From Nanobdellota archaeon (lineage in GTDB: Archaea; Nanobdellota; Nanobdellia; Pacearchaeales; GW2011-AR1): a stretch of DNA of 35,519 nucleotides. This document shows positions 3,890 to 30,295 of this stretch, in pieces. The notes beneath the pieces are model-generated. The model did no database searches. It was not told where the DNA came from and worked only from the letters and a program-made list of their open reading frames with translations. A program made the translations under genes and the position numbers. The stretch is taken from assembly GCA_030647965.1 (NCBI GenBank), contig JAUSIT010000005.1, positions 1 through 35,519 of the forward strand, given 5' to 3'. Positions within the stretch are counted from its first letter, which is position 1. Every line of letters starts with the position of its first letter.

Positions 3890-3956
3890 TTATTTTAAAG
3901 AAGTCTAGGTTTTAAATATCTTTAGAGGAAAATTATCTGACTAAACTTGCAACTGC

Positions 3957-4095
3957 GTTGAATTAGTTTGCTTTAATAAATGGAATTGTCTGGCGACAAT
4001 TTACGATTAATTAATTGATAGCCGGAGCCGAAAGGCGACTTAATATTCCCACAAAGTGCAATAATTAGTAAACTTAAATTTTATTGGGATTATTT
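3957..4095 (+). repeat. Dispersed structured intergenic element, copy 1
   Basis: Intergenic sequence closely similar to 17362-17562 and, on the other strand, to 10895-11000. Shared blocks are TAGTTTGCTTTAA, TTGTCTGGCGA, TTAATTAATTGATA and GCC-GAAA-GGC (4027-4036) followed by GACTTAATAT, then a tail ending ATTGGGATTA. Copy 1 has a local hairpin TTGTC-TGGC-GACAA where copies 2 and 3 have a longer AT-rich hairpin. The two neighbouring genes are on the other strand. It could be a small RNA, a mobile palindromic element or both. Confidence 0.55.
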
Positions 4096-4618: not shown

Positions 4619-5037
4619 TAATAACTAATGAAAAATTATTATATAAATCTAGTGATTGATTGTTTTTAGTATTTATTTTAATCAGTAGTTAAAGTTACGA
4701 AAAATTTAAATAGCTATCTTTTATTTCATTTTTATGCATCAAGCAATATTTCGGTGGCGTTAGAATATTATTTAATTCTTTTAGCTTGAGCTTTAACAAA
4801 TCAACTTATTTTAATCCTCAAATAAATTTAGCCGAAAGGCGGGAGAAAATACAATGAATTTGAGAAAAGAAAAAAGAACTAAATCTCCGGAGGGAAATAT
4901 GGGAAGAATTTTATCTAATTTTAATTGGCGTTGCAATAAAAATAATTGAAGAGCCAAAGGCTTACTTTGATAATGAAGGTAAGCAGAAACTTGAGGAGAT
5001 TGTAACAATTGTAAGGAGGGCTTTTGGAAGAGAACAA
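4619..5037 (+). other. Gene-poor stretch before the GNAT gene, with a possible broken start
   Basis: A TATA-like AAATTTAAAT lies near 4700. At 4830-4843 a GCC-GAAA-GGC hairpin resembles the core of the dispersed element. A 31-codon frame runs from ATG 4854 to TGA 4947-4949 and contains a second ATG at 4899 behind a strong GGAGGG. From 4864 the frame of the GNAT gene is open without a stop down to its first ATG at 5038, and it encodes plausible protein (IKIIEEPKAYFDNEG, then a helix LEEIVTIVRRAFGRE) but has no ATG, GTG or TTG. A one-base shift between 4901 and 4947 would join the well-initiated frame to the GNAT gene. Confidence 0.4.
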
Positions 5038-6840: not shown

Positions 6841-6892
6841 ATTTTTGTATTATTTTAAGGATATATAAAATTAGTGGTTGTGAAAAATATAG

Positions 6893-7108
6893 CTCTAAAA
6901 AATTTTGCTTTTAGTATATAAAATATATCACCCCAAAAACTTTTACTCTTGATATATTACTTTAACATTTGCAAGAGCAAAAGTTTTTCCACCAGTCCTC
7001 AAAATTTTTTGGAAATTTTGGGAACTTCAATTCTCTATTAATCGAATTGAAGTGATTCGAACCTTAGTTCGAATCTGGATTATGCTATTTCACTTTGTTC
7101 AATAGCAT
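6893..7108. other. Chain of consecutive perfect hairpins next to tRNA-Gln
   Basis: The 270 nt between the HAD gene and tRNA-Gln hold no ORF but at least six stem-loops in a row: CTAAAA/TTTTAG (6893-6913), a 17-nt stem with one mismatch (6935-6988), CAAAATTT/AAATTTTG (7000-7020), ACTTCAATTC/GAATTGAAGT (7024-7053), GATTCGAAC-CTTA-GTTCGAATC (7054-7075) and ATGCTATT/AATAGCAT (7082-7108). Stem sequences are unrelated to each other. The GATTCGAAC of the fifth hairpin equals the T-arm sequence of the adjacent tRNA as read on the plus strand. Confidence 0.6.
6935..6988. repeat. 54-nt long-hairpin repeat, copy 1
   Basis: Stem AAAAACTTTTACTCTTG pairs with CAAGAGCAAAAGTTTTT with one A-C mismatch and a 20-nt AT-rich loop. 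The stem and loop resemble 11727-11781, which has the same mismatch in the same place, and 17410-17465, where the stem is perfect. Confidence 0.6.
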
Positions 7109-7110
7109 TA

Positions 7111-7200
7111 TAGCCCCACCAGGATTCGAACCTGGGTCCCAGCCTTTCTCGCCATTAATTGACCAGAGGGCCGGATCCTTGACCGCTAGACTATGGGGCT
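7111..7200 (-). tRNA. tRNA-Gln (CUG anticodon) with a 17-nt intron
   Basis: Read on the minus strand, the acceptor stem AGCCCCA pairs with TGGGGCT and the discriminator is A. The D arm is GTCT...GG.. and the T arm is CCAGG-TTCGAAT-CCTGG. The anticodon stem CGGCC/GGCTG encloses 24 nt instead of 7. Removing 17 nt (plus-strand 7146-7162) after position 37 leaves the loop CTCTGGA, anticodon CUG, as in archaeal tRNA-Gln with its A1-U72 pair. The intron junctions can form an imperfect bulge-helix-bulge (CTC of the exon with GAG of the intron, AAA bulge at the 3' site). tRNA-Glu is the main alternative, since the D arm also suits it, but it would need a non-canonical splice position. Confidence 0.8.
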
Positions 7201-10859: not shown

Positions 10860-10894
10860 TTGTTGCTTATTTGGATAACTCTGCTAAACAGATA

Positions 10895-11000
10895 TAGTTT
10901 TTATGATATTAAGTCGCTTGGCAGCTCCTGAACTTTTATTAATTAATCATTGTAAGCGCAAAACTTTTTTTGCGAAAGCAAGATATTTCATAGTTCAGAT
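10895..11000 (-). repeat. Dispersed structured intergenic element, copy 3
   Basis: On the minus strand this reads TTGCTTTCGC, a hairpin CGCAAAA/TTTTGCG, TTACAAT, GATTAATTAATAAAAG, then GCT-GCCA-AGC (plus strand 10916-10925) and GACTTAATATCAT. The core stem is GCT/AGC here but GCC/GGC in the other copies, a compensated change. It lies between the convergent ends of rfcL and the YkgJ-type gene. Confidence 0.5.
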
Positions 11001-11703: not shown

Positions 11704-11781
11704 TGCGAAGACACTCCTGGTTTCTTAAAAAATTTTACTCTTATAATATTGCTATTTTCATTTGCAAGAGCAAAATTTTTT
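11704..11781 (-). promoter_or_regulatory. Structured leader of the OB-fold gene with long-hairpin repeat copy 2
   Basis: Read on the minus strand: a long hairpin (plus strand 11727-11742 with 11766-11781; 16-nt stem, one A-C mismatch), then a weaker hairpin in which AAG..AC pairs with GTCTT around the loop CAGGAGT, then CGCA and the ATG at 11703. The hairpin also could end transcription of the gene upstream. It is the second copy of the long-hairpin repeat. Confidence 0.5.
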
Positions 11782-14158: not shown

Positions 14159-17143
14159 ATGAATATAAAAAAAGTTAGAAAAAGAGATGGAAGTGTTGTA
14201 TTATTTCAAAAAGAAAAGATAGCAGAAGCTGTTTGGAGAGCAGCAAAGGCAGTTGGAGGCCAGGATAAAGAAAAAGCAGAACATATTGCTGATTTAGTTT
14301 CTCAAAAACTTGGTTTGAAATATGGTGAAACAGGGATTCCTGAAGTTGAAGAAGTGCAGGATTTAGTTGAAAAAATGCTTATTGAAGAAGGACATGCAAA
14401 AACTGCAAAAGCATATATACTATATAGGAAAAGTCATGAGGAATTGAGAAATGTAAAAGGTTTGTTTGATACTATAGAGGTTGTTGATGATTATGTTGGT
14501 TTAAATGATTGGATGGTTAAAGAAAATTCTAATATGGGATTTTCTTTGCAAGGATTAAATAATTATATTGCAACAAAAATAATTACTAATTACTGGATGA
14601 GAAGGATTTATCCTGAAGCAATAAGAAAAGCACATGAAAATGTTGATTTGCATATTCATGATTTAGGCACTCTTGGAGCATACTGCGTAGGGTGGGATTT
14701 AAATGATTTATTAATTTCTGGATTTAAAGGAGTTGCAGGAAAAGTTGAATCAAAACCTGCAAAACATTTGAGAACTGCATTAGGGCAAATTGTAAATTTC
14801 TTTTATACTTTACAAGGGGAAACAGCAGGAGCACAGGCTTTTTCAAATTTTGATACTTTACTTGCTCCTTTCATAAGATATGATGATTTAGATTATAAAC
14901 ATGTAAAACAAGCAATGCAGGAATTTTTATTTAATATGGCGGTTCCTACAAGGGTGGGATTTCAATGTATGTCTGAAGATACTGAAATATTGACTTTGAA
15001 TGGATGGAAAAATTATGAAGATTTGAAGGTAGGCGATACTATTAAAACTTTTAATATTGGGAAAAAATCTATTGAAGATAAACCTATAAAAAAATTATTC
15101 AAGAGATATTATGAAGGCATTATGTATAATTTGAAAAATAGAATTCAAGACCAACTTATATCTCCCGGGCATAGAATTGTAAGAAAAAAATTTCAGACAG
15201 AAAATTATGTTTTAGAAGAAGTTGAAAAAATTGACAAAATGAAATCTCCTTTTATTGTTCCTATTGCAGGCAGAAATAATAATAAAGATTCAAAATTAAA
15301 AGATGATGAAATAAAATTGCTTGCTTGGGTTATTGCTGAAGGAACAGAAGAAAATTCAAATCAAAAATATAGGCATTCATGTAGAATTACTATTTATCAA
15401 TCTAAAATAAAAAATTATGAAAAGTATAAAGAAATTATTGGACTTTTAAAAAAATTTAAATTAAATTATTCTGAAAGAGATTCTTCTCCAGCATTAGGAG
15501 ATTCTGTGAAAATGATAAGATTGGATGCTGAATCATCAAGAAAAATTCATTTTTTATTTGGAACTAATGAAAGTATTAACTTTATCCCAAAAATTTTATT
15601 TAATCTAAGTAAAAGACAAGCAAGATTATTTTTAGAGACTTATATTAAAGCAGATGGTTTTGAAAATTGTAAAATTAGTACAACTAATAAAAATATTTTA
15701 GATGGGCTTCAACAAATTGCAGTTGATGCAGAGTATGGTTTTACAGTTTTAACAAGACAACCTACAATAGGAAAAAAATTAATTTATGTTTTAAGATTGA
15801 TTAAACATTTAGAAACTTATATTCAAAAAATAGAAAAAGTGAATTATAAGGGGATTATTTGGTGTCCTAATACGGATAATGAAACTGTAATTGCAAGAAG
15901 AAATGGAAAAGTTTTCATTACAGGAAATACACCATTTACAAATATTACTATGGATTTGAAAGTTCCTGTTCATATGAAAAATGAAGCAGTAATTATTGGA
16001 GGAAAACCTCAAAAAGAAACTTATGGGGAATTTCAAAAAGAAATGAATATGATAAATAAGGCCTTTGCAGAATGCATGCTTGAAGGGGATGCGTCTGGTA
16101 GAGTTTTTACATTTCCAATTCCAACATATAATATAACCAAAGATTTTGACTGGGATAATTCTGAATATGATTTAATTTGGGAAATGACTTCTAAATATGG
16201 GATTCCTTATTTTTCAAATTTTATTAATTCTGATATGAAACCAGAAGATGCACGTTCAATGTGTTGCAGATTAAGATTAGATCAGGCAGAATTAAGAAAA
16301 AGGGGCGGAGGATTATTTGGAAGTAATCCTTTAACTGGTTCAATAGGTGTTGTAACAATAAATATGCCTAGATTGGGTTTTAGTTCTGCAGATGAACAAG
16401 ATTTTTTAAAAAGATTAGGTGAATTAATGGAACTGGCAAAAGAAAGTTTAGAAATAAAAAGAAAAACAATAGAACAATTTACAGAAGTTGGATTATATCC
16501 TTATTCTAAATTTTATTTAAGAAGTATTAAAATGAAATTTGGAGAGTATTGGAAAAATCATTTTTCTACAATAGGATTATTGGGAATGAATGAAGCAATA
16601 ATGAATATTTATCCTGGTGAAAATATTGGAACTCCTAAAGGGGTTGAATTTACTATGAGAGTTTTAGGATTTATGAGAAAAAAACTTGAAGAATATCAAC
16701 AAGAAACAGGAAATATATATAATTTAGAAGCAACGCCTGGAGAGGGAACTACTTATAGATTTGCAAGAAATGATAAAAAAAGATTTGGCAAAATTATTGT
16801 TGCAAATGAAGAAGCTTTTAGAAAAGGTGCAAAACCATATTATACTAATTCAACACAATTACCTGTAAATTATACTGATGATTTATTTGAAGCATTAGAA
16901 TTGCAAGATGAACTTCAGATAAGATATACTGGTGGAACTGTTTTTCATGCTTATATTGGAGAAAAACTTCAAAAAGAAGAGATTAAGATGCTAATAAAAA
17001 AAATTGCAGATAATTTTAGAATGCCTTATTTTACAATAACGCCAGTATTTTCAATTTGTCCTATTCATGGTTATTTATATGGAAATCATGAATACTGTCC
17101 AAAATGTGATGAAGAAATTGGATTTATAGAAAATACTAATTAG
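14159..17143 (+). CDS. nrdD: Class III anaerobic ribonucleotide reductase, main chain, with intein
   Basis: Reduces NTPs to dNTPs with a glycyl radical made by NrdG. 994 codons: 673 extein residues plus a 321-residue intein (residues 270-590). An ATP-cone is at residues 1-95. The active-site Cys176 lies in LGAYCVGWDL, and the second conserved Cys is in ARSMCCRLRLD after the intein. The C-terminal metal site is SICPIHGYLYGNHEYCPKC. The chain stops just after this site (GFIENTN), so the glycyl-radical loop that normally follows is missing; it is encoded by the separate gene at 17194. The intein sits between VGFQ and TPFTN. No SD lies outside the leader hairpin. Confidence 0.95.
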   Translation: MNIKKVRKRDGSVVLFQKEKIAEAVWRAAKAVGGQDKEKAEHIADLVSQKLGLKYGETGIPEVEEVQDLVEKMLIEEGHAKTAKAYILYRKSHEELRNVKGLFDTIEVVDDYVGLNDWMVKENSNMGFSLQGLNNYIATKIITNYWMRRIYPEAIRKAHENVDLHIHDLGTLGAYCVGWDLNDLLISGFKGVAGKVESKPAKHLRTALGQIVNFFYTLQGETAGAQAFSNFDTLLAPFIRYDDLDYKHVKQAMQEFLFNMAVPTRVGFQCMSEDTEILTLNGWKNYEDLKVGDTIKTFNIGKKSIEDKPIKKLFKRYYEGIMYNLKNRIQDQLISPGHRIVRKKFQTENYVLEEVEKIDKMKSPFIVPIAGRNNNKDSKLKDDEIKLLAWVIAEGTEENSNQKYRHSCRITIYQSKIKNYEKYKEIIGLLKKFKLNYSERDSSPALGDSVKMIRLDAESSRKIHFLFGTNESINFIPKILFNLSKRQARLFLETYIKADGFENCKISTTNKNILDGLQQIAVDAEYGFTVLTRQPTIGKKLIYVLRLIKHLETYIQKIEKVNYKGIIWCPNTDNETVIARRNGKVFITGNTPFTNITMDLKVPVHMKNEAVIIGGKPQKETYGEFQKEMNMINKAFAECMLEGDASGRVFTFPIPTYNITKDFDWDNSEYDLIWEMTSKYGIPYFSNFINSDMKPEDARSMCCRLRLDQAELRKRGGGLFGSNPLTGSIGVVTINMPRLGFSSADEQDFLKRLGELMELAKESLEIKRKTIEQFTEVGLYPYSKFYLRSIKMKFGEYWKNHFSTIGLLGMNEAIMNIYPGENIGTPKGVEFTMRVLGFMRKKLEEYQQETGNIYNLEATPGEGTTYRFARNDKKRFGKIIVANEEAFRKGAKPYYTNSTQLPVNYTDDLFEALELQDELQIRYTGGTVFHAYIGEKLQKEEIKMLIKKIADNFRMPYFTITPVFSICPIHGYLYGNHEYCPKCDEEIGFIENTN
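14966..15928 (+). mobile_element. Intein with LAGLIDADG homing endonuclease inside nrdD
   Basis: 321 codons in frame. It begins with Cys (CMSEDTEILTLNGWKNYED, block A), has SPGH in block B and ends VFITGN before the Thr of TPFTN. The penultimate residue is Gly rather than the usual His. Two dodecapeptide motifs, LLAWVIAEG and LFLETYIKADG, keep the acidic residues of a LAGLIDADG nuclease, so homing activity may survive. NrdD of Methanocaldococcus jannaschii also carries inteins, so the host protein is a known target. Confidence 0.92.
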
Positions 17144-17193: not shown

Positions 17194-17316
17194 ATGAGAG
17201 AAAGAACAAGGTGTGAAGTGTTTAGCAGAATTGTAGGTTATCTTAGGCCTGTCCAGCAGTGGAATGAAGGCATGCAAGCACAATTTGCTGACAGAAAGAC
17301 GTTTAAGCTAAAGTGA
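17194..17316 (+). CDS. Stand-alone glycyl-radical domain of class III ribonucleotide reductase
   Basis: A 40-codon gene. The product (MRERTRCEVFSRIVGYLRPV, then QQWNEGMQAQFADRKTFK) is the extreme C-terminus of NrdD; Gly15 in RIVGYLRPV is the expected glycyl-radical residue, equivalent to Gly580 of phage T4 NrdD. A strong Shine-Dalgarno GGAGGTGA ends 3 nt before the ATG, and an in-frame TGA (17188-17190) overlaps it, so it is translated separately and not by frameshift from nrdD. It starts 51 nt after the nrdD stop on the same strand. It should bind NrdD so that NrdG can form the radical (inference). A free glycyl-radical domain has a precedent in YfiD/GrcA, which repairs pyruvate formate-lyase. 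Confidence 0.9.
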   Translation: MRERTRCEVFSRIVGYLRPVQQWNEGMQAQFADRKTFKLK

Positions 17317-17361
17317 TTGAAAAGAACATGATGGGTAAACCGTCAATCTTATATGCAATTA

Positions 17362-17562
17362 CATTGAAATAGTTTGCTTTAACAAGCAATTATACAAGGA
17401 TTGTCTAGCGAAAAAATTTCGCTCTTACAATATATAATCTAAGGATATAAGAGCGAAATTTTTTCAATGAACTTTAATTAATAAATAATTTGAGCCGTTA
17501 GGCGATTTAGTATCATCATAAAGTTCAATAATCAGTAAATGTAAGGTCTATTGGATTAATTA
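17362..17562 (+). repeat. Dispersed structured intergenic element, copy 2, with long-hairpin repeat copy 3
   Basis: Same order of blocks as 3957-4095: TAGTTTGCTTTAA, ATTGTCTAGCGA, TTAATTAATAAATAATT, GCC-GTTA-GGC (17494-17503), GATTTAGTATCA, AAGTTCAATAAT, then a tail ending ATTGGATTAATT. Inside it, GAAAAAATTTCGCTCTT (17410-17426) pairs perfectly with AAGAGCGAAATTTTTTC (17449-17465); this is the third copy of the long-hairpin repeat. Confidence 0.6.
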
Positions 17563-17610
17563 AGAAGAGTATAATATATTTTAAAAAGTAGTGTTTTAAT
17601 CTAGAGATAT

Positions 17611-17663
17611 GAAAATTTCACTAAATTTTCAATTACTCAATTGTGGAGGACAATTTTCGCATC
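17611..17663 (+). promoter_or_regulatory. Structured nrdG leader, Shine-Dalgarno in a hairpin loop
   Basis: GAAAATTT-CACT-AAATTTTC (17611-17630), then an 8-nt linker AATTACTC, then AATTGT-GGAGG-ACAATT (17639-17655), then TTCGC, ATC and the ATG at 17664. The geometry is that of the nrdD and fusA leaders, with different stem sequences. Confidence 0.6.
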
Positions 17664-26654: not shown

Positions 26655-26855
26655 ATGGCAGAAAATTTTTTAGATAGAGAAATGAGAGAAAATATTGAAG
26701 CTATTAGTACTGCTTCTGGTTCTTCTGGTTTATCAAAATTATGCCCTTATTCTGCAAGGTGTAATGACAAGCTTCTTCATCAAGATACTTTTTGCTCTGA
26801 AAAATATAGATGGTGTTCACGTTATTTAGAAAGAAATGGGGGGATTATAGAATGA
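26655..26855 (+). CDS. Small Cys-containing unknown protein inside the RNA polymerase operon
   Basis: 66 residues from ATG 26655, not from the TTG at 26637, which overlaps the previous gene. The N-terminal helix (FLDREMRENIEAISTASG) is followed by CPYSARC...FC...WC, four cysteines (CPYSARCND, DTFCSEKYRWCSRYL) that could bind one zinc. Its stop overlaps the rpoA start as ATGA. I do not recognise it; a small zinc-stabilised partner of RNA polymerase is one possibility. With the 68-residue gene it forms a two-gene insertion between rpoB and rpoA. Confidence 0.65.
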   Translation: MAENFLDREMRENIEAISTASGSSGLSKLCPYSARCNDKLLHQDTFCSEKYRWCSRYLERNGGIIE

Positions 26856-29800
26856 TTAACAAACCAGTAAGAAAACAAGTTAATGGAATAAAATTCAGTC
26901 TTGTAAGTCCAGACCAAATTAATAAAATGGCTGTTGCAAAAATTGTAACTCCTGAACTTTATGATGTTGATGGTTATCCTGTTGATGGCGGTTTAATGGA
27001 TTTGAGATTGGGCGCTATTGATCCTGGTGTAAGATGTAGAACTTGCGGTGGAAGATTAAAAGAATGTTTAGGTCATTCAGGCATGATTGAATTAGCAAGA
27101 CCTGTTTTACATATAAAATATATTACTTTAATCGATATTGTTTTAAAAAGCACTTGTGAAGCATGCGGAAGAGTTTTGCTTAGTGAAGATTTTTTTGATA
27201 AAGATTTAAAGACAAGATTGAAAAAAGCAAAAGATGCAAAAAAATGCCCTCATTGCAGTTTTGTTCAAGAAAAAATTAAAATTGAAAAACCATCTTCATT
27301 TAAAATCGGAAAGAAAAGAATGTTTCCTTCTGAAATAAGGGAAAGATTAGTAAAAGTTTCTAATGCTGATTTAAAATTACTTGGAATGAACCCAGAAACA
27401 TGCAGACCTGAATGGGCAATTTTAACTTTATTATTTGTTCCTCCTGTAACAGTAAGACCTTCTATTACTTTGGAATCAGGTGAAAGAAGTGAAGATGATT
27501 TAACTCATAAGCTTTCAGATATTATCAGGGCAAATCAGAGATTATGGGAAAATTTAAATGCAGGTGCTCCTGAAGTTATTATCGAGGATTTATGGGATTT
27601 ATTACAATATCATGTAACTACTTTTTTTGATAATACTATTGCAAGAATTCCTCCTGCAAGACATAGAAGTGGTCAGCCATTGAAAACAATTACAGAAAGA
27701 ATCAAAGGTAAAGAAGGAAGAATTAGAAAGAACTTAACAGGAAAGAGAGTAAATTTTTCTGCTAGAACAGTTATTTCTCCTGATCCAAATTTAAAAATAA
27801 ATGAAGTTGGTATTCCTTTTGAAGTTGCAAAAATAATTACTGTTGCAGAAAGAGTTACATCATTAAATATTGAAAGATGCAGAAAAATAATTCTTGCAGA
27901 AAGTTATCCTGGAGCAAATTATATTATAAGACATGATGGAAAAAGAAAGAAAATTTCTCCTGATTTAAAAAAAGATTTAGCTGAAGAAATTGAACCAGGT
28001 TATATTGTTGAAAGACATTTACGTGATGGGGATGTTGTTTTATTTAATAGACATCCTTCATTGCATAGGGCTAGTTTGATGGCTCATTTTGTAAAAGTTT
28101 TACCATATAAAACTTTTAGAATGCATCCTGCTGTTGCTTTCCCATATAATGCTGATTTTGATGGTGATGAAATGAATATTCATAGACCTCAAACAGAAGA
28201 AGCAAGAGCAGAAGCAGAAGTTTTACTTAATGTTGAAGCAAATTTAATTTCTCCTAAAAATAATACTAATTTGCTTGGATGTATTTCCGATGCTGTAACC
28301 GGTAATTTTATTTTAGGTGAAAGTGAACTTTCTAAAGAAGATGCAATACAATTATTGCATGAAGCAGGAATTTCAAAATTTTCATTAAATAAACAAAATA
28401 GTGGAAAAGATATTTTTATGAAAGCTTTTCCTAAAGAATTGCAACATTTAAAATTAGGTGCTATTGATTCAAATATATTTGGTGTTGAAAGTGGAGAGAT
28501 GATTAAACAATTAGATAGAGAAATTGGAAGAAAAGAAACATTAAATGTTTTAAGAGATGTTTTTGCACTTGGAACTGTTTTCTTATCAAGAAATGGATTT
28601 ACAATTTCTGTTGATGATTTAAATGTTTCAGAACATATTAAATCTATAACCCAAAAAATTATTTCAGATGCAGAAGATAAAACTCAAAAAATTATCGAAT
28701 CTTATTATGATAAAAATTTAGAAGCTCTTCCTGGAAAAACTTTAGAAGAAACAAGAGAAATTAAAATATTGCAAGTTTTAAATGAAGTTAGAACAAATAT
28801 TGGAAAAATTGTAAAAGAAGAATTTCCAAAATCAAATCCAGTAAGTAAAATGATTAATTCTGGAGCAGGAGGTAATATTTTGAATATTACTCAGATTGCG
28901 TGTTCTGTAGGACAACAGGCATTAAAAGGAATGAGAATTAATTTTGGATATACTAATAGAACACTATCTTCTTTTAAAAAAGGAGATTTATCCCCATTAT
29001 CTAGAGGATTTATTTATAATTCATTTATTCATGGTTTAAGACCAGAAGAATTTTTCTTTGGAGCTTTAACAGGAAGAGATTCACTTATGGATACTGCATT
29101 AAGAACTCCAAAATCAGGTTATTTATATAGAAGATTATCTAATGCACTTCAAGATTTAATTATTGAATATGATGGAACAGTAAGGGATGCTTCTGAAAAT
29201 ATTGTACAATTTATTTATGGTAGAGATGGCTTAGATGTTAGTGGATTGCATAAAGATCAAAAAATTGCACCTGGAGAAGCAATTGGAATTATAACTGCAC
29301 AATCTTTTGGAGAACCTTCAACACAGATGGCATTGAATGTATTCCACTCAGCAGGAGTCGCAGAGATGCAGATTACCCAAGGGTTGCCAAGATTAATTGA
29401 AATTTTTGATGCAAGAAAAAAACCATCAACACCTACAATGGAAATTTATTTAGATAAAGAGCATAATAATGAAAAAGATTCAAGAGTAATTGCTGAAAAA
29501 ATAAAAGAAGTTAAATTAAAAGAAATAATGTCTGAAATTCATATTAATTTCACAGATAAAAAATTAGAAGTTTTAATTGATTTAGAAGCACTAAGAAGAG
29601 TTCATATGGGCATTGATAGTGTTGTTGATGTTTTAAATGAAAAAACTTTCAAAGCAAAGAAAAAAGAAGATTTAATTATAATTGATTTGAAAGATAAAGA
29701 TTTTAAAGAAATTTACAAGATAAAAGAAAAAATAAAAGAAGTTATTTTATCTGGAGTAAAAGGAATTGAACAGGTTTTGGTTGTTAAGAGAGATAAGGAT

Positions 29801-30295
29801 TTTATTGTTTTAACAGCAGGTTCAAATTTACAAGATGTTATTGCTTTTAAGGGAGTTGATTCTGAAAAAATTACTACAAATGATTTCCAAGAAATTTCTT
29901 CTGTTTTAGGAATTGAATCTTCAAGACAGGCAATTATTAATGAATTAAAGAAAGTTATAGTTTCTCAAGGTTTAGATATTGATAAAAGACATTTAATGCT
30001 TGTTGCAGATGCAATGACTTATTCAGGAGTTGTAAAAGGTATTACTAGAATGGGTATTATCTCTGACAAGAGTTCTGTATTAGCAAGGGCAAGTTTTGAA
30101 ACTCCCATAAAACATTTTGTAAATGCCACAAGAAGTGGAAAAAGGGATAAATTAGCTTCAGTAGTTGAAAATATTACATTAAATCAGCCAGTTCCTGTTG
30201 GAACAGGATTGCCAGGACTTCTTGTAAAAGTTACAGGACCACTATCTAAGGAACAGAAACATTTAAAGAGTGAAACCAAATCTAAAGATAAGTAA
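26852..30295 (+). CDS. rpoA: RNA polymerase subunit A, A' and A'' fused
   Basis: 1147 residues from ATG 26852; an upstream ATG at 26810 lies within the previous gene and is rejected. Zinc site Cys62, Cys65, Cys72, His75, then a second (CEACGRVL...CPHCSF). The catalytic NADFDGDEMN is at 433-442. The bridge helix is in GRDSLMDTALRTPKSGYLYR and the trigger loop in TQMALNVFHSAGVAEMQITQ. The A'' part (from about residue 800) continues in the same chain, with IGIITAQSFGEPSTQM and the C-terminal jaw. Most euryarchaea encode A' and A'' separately; here they are one gene and shorter than the sum of the two. It ends 39 nt before the rpl30e start. Confidence 0.97.
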   Translation: MINKPVRKQVNGIKFSLVSPDQINKMAVAKIVTPELYDVDGYPVDGGLMDLRLGAIDPGVRCRTCGGRLKECLGHSGMIELARPVLHIKYITLIDIVLKSTCEACGRVLLSEDFFDKDLKTRLKKAKDAKKCPHCSFVQEKIKIEKPSSFKIGKKRMFPSEIRERLVKVSNADLKLLGMNPETCRPEWAILTLLFVPPVTVRPSITLESGERSEDDLTHKLSDIIRANQRLWENLNAGAPEVIIEDLWDLLQYHVTTFFDNTIARIPPARHRSGQPLKTITERIKGKEGRIRKNLTGKRVNFSARTVISPDPNLKINEVGIPFEVAKIITVAERVTSLNIERCRKIILAESYPGANYIIRHDGKRKKISPDLKKDLAEEIEPGYIVERHLRDGDVVLFNRHPSLHRASLMAHFVKVLPYKTFRMHPAVAFPYNADFDGDEMNIHRPQTEEARAEAEVLLNVEANLISPKNNTNLLGCISDAVTGNFILGESELSKEDAIQLLHEAGISKFSLNKQNSGKDIFMKAFPKELQHLKLGAIDSNIFGVESGEMIKQLDREIGRKETLNVLRDVFALGTVFLSRNGFTISVDDLNVSEHIKSITQKIISDAEDKTQKIIESYYDKNLEALPGKTLEETREIKILQVLNEVRTNIGKIVKEEFPKSNPVSKMINSGAGGNILNITQIACSVGQQALKGMRINFGYTNRTLSSFKKGDLSPLSRGFIYNSFIHGLRPEEFFFGALTGRDSLMDTALRTPKSGYLYRRLSNALQDLIIEYDGTVRDASENIVQFIYGRDGLDVSGLHKDQKIAPGEAIGIITAQSFGEPSTQMALNVFHSAGVAEMQITQGLPRLIEIFDARKKPSTPTMEIYLDKEHNNEKDSRVIAEKIKEVKLKEIMSEIHINFTDKKLEVLIDLEALRRVHMGIDSVVDVLNEKTFKAKKKEDLIIIDLKDKDFKEIYKIKEKIKEVILSGVKGIEQVLVVKRDKDFIVLTAGSNLQDVIAFKGVDSEKITTNDFQEISSVLGIESSRQAIINELKKVIVSQGLDIDKRHLMLVADAMTYSGVVKGITRMGIISDKSSVLARASFETPIKHFVNATRSGKRDKLASVVENITLNQPVPVGTGLPGLLVKVTGPLSKEQKHLKSETKSKDK

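Follow-up and report, generated by a model that had tools for sequence, protein, structure and literature searches.

A MITE-like family of hairpin-rich intergenic elements carrying a nested palindrome in a Nanobdellota archaeon

Three element copies and their surroundings

The window is the whole analysed stretch of 35,519 nucleotides (contig JAUSIT010000005.1). Its translation includes genes of archaeal type for replication factor C, RNA polymerase, and EF-2 as well as ribosomal genes, and these, along with the 1-Mb genome size, suggest a DPANN-type archaeon; by eye, RNA polymerase subunit A (26810–30295) forms one fused ORF of 1161 aa, as opposed to the usual two. At 7111–7200 (minus strand) there is a 90-nt Rfam tRNA match of 46 bits where ARAGORN reports none, possibly with an intron or a long variable arm.

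Three copies of a dispersed element have been described in this window by a sequence-only reading, and they are present in the sequence within a few bases of the places given there. Our covariance model R1 matches them at 3948–4082 (plus), 17354–17549 (plus), and 10874–10995 (minus). Their E-values over the window are 3e-26, 1e-14, and 2.5e-08, respectively. The model also reports one antisense echo of the first copy and nothing at 4830; the "weaker core" suspected at 4830–4843 has no R1 match at E ≤ 5, shares only AGCCGAAAGGCG, and is not a copy. The three core stems of that reading, GCC-GAAA-GGC, GCC-GTTA-GGC, and GCT-GCCA-AGC, can be read directly in the sequence.

A full copy, which we call type A, runs from the terminal repeat TGTTAAGTAAAC through AACTKCGTTGAA, the hairpin HP2 (TTTGCTT-NNNN-AAGCAAA), and GATWWAWTGG to the hairpin HP3 (AATTGTC-TAGC-GACAATT). 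This is followed by GATTAATTAATAAAT, the hairpin HP4 (GCC-GNNA-GGC), GACTTARTAT, ACGAAGTGC, and the terminal repeat GTTTACTTAACA. In type B, HP2 is shorter, the outer repeats are absent, and a spacer often stands ahead of the right module.

Copy 1 is of type A and belongs to the seed of R1 (124.8 bits). Its left module AACTGCGTTGAA..AGTTTGCTT contains HP2 without the 3' arm, and its right module contains HP4 and AAAGTGC. HP3 (AATTGTC-TGGC-GACAATT, 3984–4001, plus) is read from the sequence, with the helix covarying over 82 rows, and HP4 (GCC-GAAA-GGC, 4027–4036, plus) is supported by sequence reading, covariation, and the loop census described below.

For copy 2, the full element spans 17329–17565 (plus) according to degenerate terminal inverted repeats matching at 9/12 on each end, and the flanking 5-mers GAACA and AGAGT do not match, leaving no visible duplication at this, the one window copy whose ends can both be read. 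Its core (75 bits) is matched with a nested hairpin treated as an insertion. HP2 (TTGCTT-TAAC-AAGCAA, 17374–17389, plus) rests on sequence reading and covariation, and HP4 (GCC-GTTA-GGC, 17494–17503, plus) on the loop census as well. The AT-rich hairpin of different sequence noticed earlier in this copy does exist, but it is a separate nested palindrome element, which the census of copies locates in the HP3 loop at 17409–17464 (plus). Copy 2 sits between a 40-aa ORF (17195–17317) and an nrdG-like gene. By eye, this ORF, lying between nrdD and nrdG, resembles a glycyl-radical domain that has been separated from an anaerobic ribonucleotide reductase, and the nrdD-like ORF (14159–17143, 994 aa) has an apparent intein-like insert (..CMSEDTEILTLNG..VFITGN..).

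Copy 3 (47.8 bits) retains the right module with HP4 as GCT-GCCA-AGC; its left part is decayed, with a short TTGC-GCAA hairpin, and a remnant of one arm of the nested palindrome lies at 10954–10968 (minus).

Copy number, placement, and marks of transposition

We have searched the archaeon's own genome with a core pattern of 22 bases (GAGCC NNN AGGCGAYTTARTAT, up to 3 mismatches), which occurs at 45 places against 0 for the reversed-pattern control, far above chance. The model R1 (145 positions, 26 pairs) was built from A1, an alignment of ten clean copies which includes copy 1 of the window but not copies 2 and 3; the structure was drawn by eye from A1 and then tested on 82 rows. On the own genome, with 150 of 2630 first-look candidates scored, R1 gives at least 109 matches at E ≤ 10. 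From these, 95 hit rows were taken, while 14 were left out as presumed antisense echoes or partial overlaps. Removing the rows below 30.3 bits and all overlaps leaves 82 copies, none overlapping another, in a genome of 982 kb; each copy scores at least 30.4 bits, on the same 150 scored candidates. The sequence-only reading had counted three copies and proposed a genome-wide covariance-model search for others; further copies have been found, and the number is corrected to about 82. With copies of about 230 bp, we infer that the element makes up ~2% of the genome. Such a structured element occurs about once per 12 kb in this 1-Mb archaeal genome, whose group is regarded as streamlined.

All 82 copies are intergenic, as none is overlapped for more than 60 nt by an ORF of at least 100 aa, while such ORFs cover 76% of the examined DNA; the earlier statement that no ORF lies inside the element is confirmed for ORFs of this size. 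The flanking genes are arranged as ++ for 24 copies, −− for 20, −+ for 17, and +− for 13, and the other 8 have one flank unresolved. According to a rough script, 48 of the 95 hit rows are of type A and 15 of type B, 22 are uncalled, and 10 have no downstream right module; in a few copies, hand reading reveals two left modules head to head.

Both terminal inverted repeats, TGTTAAGTAAAC and GTTTACTTAACA, are present at 9/12 or better in 21 of the 95 hit rows and at 10/12 in 10 rows; decay hides them in most copies. The ten copies whose repeats both reach 10/12 or better measure 182–185 bp (n = 3), 235–245 bp (n = 6), and 291 bp (n = 1), lengths which fit zero, one, and two nested palindromes of about 55 bp, respectively. 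The exact duplications GTATC and ATAAC flanking the two best copies were spotted first by eye and suggested a formal test of target duplication, which had also been proposed from the sequence alone. With the repeats at 9/12 or better, the 5-bp flanks are alike at four or more of five bases in 8/21 copies, compared with 1.04 expected (none of 20,000 shuffles reached as high), and without the two suggesting copies, 6/19 remain against 0.95 expected (p = 5e-05). At 10/12, flank duplication is seen in 4/10 copies against 0.5 expected, or in 2/8 against 0.25 (p = 0.018) once the two suggesting copies are removed. In addition, flank windows 3–9 bases long were scanned in 53 copies, with offsets from −3 to 3. 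At offset 0, the 5-base window scores 0.426; a single window scores higher (0.497), one of 3 bases at offset 1 that is contained in this 5-mer, and all the rest fall within 0.15–0.41.

Since the family combines terminal repeats, a 5-bp duplication, high copy number, and intergenic, orientation-neutral placement, its members are MITE-like transposed elements. The sequence-only reading had offered two options, a small RNA family with structure and a miniature mobile element with RNA structure, and these same features support the mobile half of that proposal. As for a mover, we searched the genome, which is 85% complete, for the transposase families Y1_Tnp (PF01797), DDE_Tnp_1 (PF01609), and rve (PF00665) and obtained no match; as a positive control, Y1_Tnp matches 5 of 14 control genomes.

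In 139 relatives, none of the same genus, R1 found no match under filters stricter than those used in the own genome. The core pattern gave a few 3-mismatch matches in 4 of 55 relatives, no more than its reversed control, and a search of viral contigs for a wider family returned none. Four bacterial loci among GTDB contigs also fit the core pattern, which we have judged to be chance because of the size of that collection. Overall, given the terminal repeats, the duplication, the intergenic, orientation-neutral placement, and 0/139 relatives with a copy, the picture is that of a MITE-like element which spread in a burst, by now old, within one lineage.

Covariation of the hairpins, as DNA or as RNA

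A covarying stem had been claimed for the three window copies, and the larger alignments support covariation strongly. In A1, which was not fitted to the model, 13 of the 26 pairs have changed at both positions. In A2, which was fitted to R1 so that its counts lean towards the model, all 26 pairs do, with 232 double-changed cells compared with 73.7 ± 7.2 in shuffled and 18–37 in slid controls. A2 holds 89 matches in 82 distinct rows, including a few antisense echoes, and its equality with the 82 copies is a coincidence. The proportion of paired cells on A2 is 93.7% for HP2, 92.8% for HP3, and 92.4% for HP4, and drops to 71.1% for the basal stem. On our first alignments, which suffered from nested inserts and misalignment, RNAalifold detected little structure for that reason unless RIBOSUM scoring was used; with RIBOSUM, it proposed HP2, HP3, and HP4 together with a portion of the basal stem.

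The basal stem P1, which joins the core ends, was considered as a selected helix and rejected, since only 71% of its cells are paired and A-C mismatches (91) exceed G-U (56). We read P1 as a decayed inverted repeat.

The family shows how covariation alone can be misread as a sign of RNA, as two simple comparisons, of mismatch types and of loop types, point to DNA. Under selection for an RNA folded from one strand, G-U is expected to be tolerated and A-C not. Within HP2–HP4, leaving aside the outermost HP2 pair, the mismatches are 33 G-U and 32 A-C; with that pair counted, G-U is higher (48 against 33). GNRA is a stable tetraloop in RNA. In the HP4 loop census, 40 of 46 intact loops begin with G and end with A, and these comprise 36 GNYA and 4 GNRA (the 95 hit rows were surveyed, of which 47 gave no loop and others repeated one already counted). 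In DNA, a GNNA tetraloop closed by C-G, d(cGNNAg), is stable (Nakano et al. 2002, cited in PMC8373063). Because G-T and A-C mismatches are about equal and the loop is GNYA rather than GNRA, the structure of HP2–HP4 looks like folded DNA, not RNA.

A structured RNA family, small RNA or mRNA element, whose copies are transcribed, folded, and kept for a host function, would account for the strong covariation of the three hairpins and for the 48:33 ratio obtained with the outer HP2 pair. We consider it quite improbable. The stems show no G-U excess inside, the loops are GNYA, copies lie in all orientations to genes, the element ends carry 5-bp duplications, none of the 139 relatives has a copy, and Rfam has no match: scanned at gathering thresholds, the window contains two tRNAs only, and for 17300–17650 at E ≤ 10 we obtained weak, chance-level matches far below the gathering scores, mostly to the nested palindrome. 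The RNA half of the original proposal is accordingly not sustained. We reject a cis-regulatory, riboswitch-like role, as the copies do not keep one orientation relative to genes.

The chief rival for the covariation keeps the same MITE-like element and concerns only what causes the paired changes, hence it does not exclude our preferred explanation. Here the covariation is unselected: template switching between the arms during replication would repeatedly rewrite the stems (quasi-palindrome correction), a mechanism reported for RNA genes in PMC8794818. Multi-base arm replacements in HP3 and the equal G-T and A-C mismatches fit such a DNA-level process, which would also be blind to G-U. The main objection is that the 3 pairs of HP4 are short for arm-templated repair, yet HP4 has 39 double-changed cells; moreover, its loop keeps G..A in 40/46 cases. 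We regard template switching as a real contender, with odds of about one in three.

Another reading, which we hold to be even less probable than the RNA family, is a single-strand mobilised element like REP/REPIN or IS200/IS605, for which a Y1 (HUH) transposase would read the hairpins. REPINs and REP sequences are likewise short, dispersed hairpin sequences, and HP4 with its GTTAG-like 5' neighbour resembles a REP. The DNA-like hairpins and loop and the palindromic left-left layouts would also suit this class. On the other hand, REPINs and REP sequences need the RAYT (Y1) transposase, and Y1_Tnp is found 0 times in this genome while 5 of 14 control genomes match. Elements of this class are not known to leave a duplication, so that the 5-bp duplication, together with the terminal repeats, does not fit.

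The nested palindrome, the overall interpretation, and known parallels

The nested palindrome is about 55 nt long, with the form AAAAAGTTTTRCTCTT-N~20-AAGAGYAAAACTTTTT. We have found it in 44 of the 82 copies, with 49 insertions in total, nearly always at one of four positions and mainly at hairpin tips. By hand reading, 23 lie in the HP4 loop, 10 in the HP3 loop, 7 on the 3' side of HP2, 6 before GAAGTGC, and 3 elsewhere. At three sites (HP4, 3'-end, and HP2), the unpaired middle of the palindrome is found in either orientation, which implies repeated hits or a flipped insert. A single ancestral insertion per site is not favoured, given these orientations and an identity of 0.78 within sites against 0.74 between sites, values that use the script's own site labels, some of them wrong.

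The exact palindrome pattern has 48 matches per strand, mostly the same places read both ways. Outside the 82 copies, the places examined lie in more decayed copies of this element (C8:10207, C10:37006, C13:72481, and C29:16512) or in other hairpin-rich repeats (C4, C10:24859, C20, C24, C31:23284, and C32). Within the window, one inverted repeat (I1, 6935–6988) lies in a different hairpin-rich repeat, and a lone one (11727–11781) lies between two minus-strand genes. None was found in 55 relatives, and Rfam gave nothing at E ≤ 0.1 on five loci with nested palindromes.

Taking all of this together, we favour, with a probability of roughly three in four, a non-autonomous MITE-like DNA family whose hairpins are kept as folded DNA and in which the palindrome lands at fixed sites. 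Speaking against it are the lack of a match to the three transposase families, the decay of the terminal repeats in most copies, their absence from type B, the missing duplication at copy 2, the G-U excess once the outermost HP2 pair is counted, and the fitting of A2 to the model. Between its terminal inverted repeats, an intact copy would extend ~182–185 bp; one nested hairpin brings this to ~235–245 bp, and a second one to 291 bp. The mover would have been a transposase of the cut-and-paste or copy-and-paste type, since lost or outside the assembly, which acted on the terminal repeats and produced the 5-bp target duplication. HP2, HP3, and HP4 keep their pairing while their sequence changes, and they would most likely act as folded DNA, single-stranded or cruciform, during replication or transposition. 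Recombination between left and right modules may have generated the rarer layouts, seen in a few copies. The ~55-nt palindrome occupies hairpin tips and two other fixed places, and exposed DNA hairpins may be what attracts it. For the host, the elements are most likely neutral intergenic ballast.

More tentatively, and in our opinion a doubtful extension, there may be two tiers of DNA-hairpin parasites: a larger element maintained via folded single-stranded DNA hairpins, and a mobile palindrome of ~55 nt which lands on the exposed tips, above all on one GNNA tetraloop, and which would insert into two or more other hairpin-rich repeat families of this archaeal genome as well. If the palindrome does target hairpin tips, structure-guided insertion would become directly testable.

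We place the element among prokaryotic MITE/BOX-type repeats, with its closest parallels being the pneumococcal BOX, RUP, and SPRITE repeats and the organelle palindromes of Volvox. In the available text on Streptococcus pneumoniae (PMC3049150), BOX, RUP, and SPRITE are small, interspersed, and hairpin-rich; RUP and SPRITE are AT-rich and BOX is modular. As here, terminal inverted repeats accompany target duplications in BOX and RUP, and the repeats insert into one another; SPRITE, which resembles a terminator and ends in AAAA/TTTT, closely recalls the nested palindrome. The likeness is one of architecture only; domain and sequence differ, and the same text describes neither insertion at a fixed hairpin loop in tens of copies nor a G-U/A-C or loop-type test. 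Prokaryotic MITEs, as presented in the accessible portion of a review (PMC10969869), share with our element the non-autonomous state, terminal inverted repeats, target duplication, AT-richness, and intergenic location; that portion names Sulfolobus, Halobacterium, Haloquadratum, and a Desulfurococcus-type archaeon, and contains neither "DPANN" nor "compensatory". The palindromes of Volvox carteri mtDNA and ptDNA (PMC2670323) are also short, spreading, and inserted within one another, but they are organellar, and the part of that report at hand mentions neither a larger host element in which they land at fixed sites nor terminal repeats or target duplications. Our literature search, which covered few subscription journals, retrieved no paper joining "miniature inverted-repeat transposable" and "DPANN" and no report of such a family.

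We also came across other repeats. The palindrome at 6935–6988 is hosted by a hairpin-chain repeat at 6890–7090 (CTTCAATTC..GAATTGAAG), and locus L138 (1–540) has tandem units of a similar repeat with two kinds of palindromes. Another intergenic repeat (GGTTTTGTGAGAACCGGAAAAATCTACACAAACAAATAATTACTACAACC), shared by L023 and L041 (C3 and C44) and also present at C10:36900, stands beside element copies. The segment 7450–7665 belongs to a different family again, in which short hairpins whose stems differ from one another (TCAAGAT/ATCTTGA, TCAAGAAAT/TTTCTTGA, TCAGGAAT/ATTCCTGA, and TTAAAATC/GATTTTAA) form a chain with 5–6-nt linkers, closed by CAAAAACAAGTGC..GGCACATTGTTTTT; its relatives at L134, L135, L137, L140, and L141 carry the nested palindrome.
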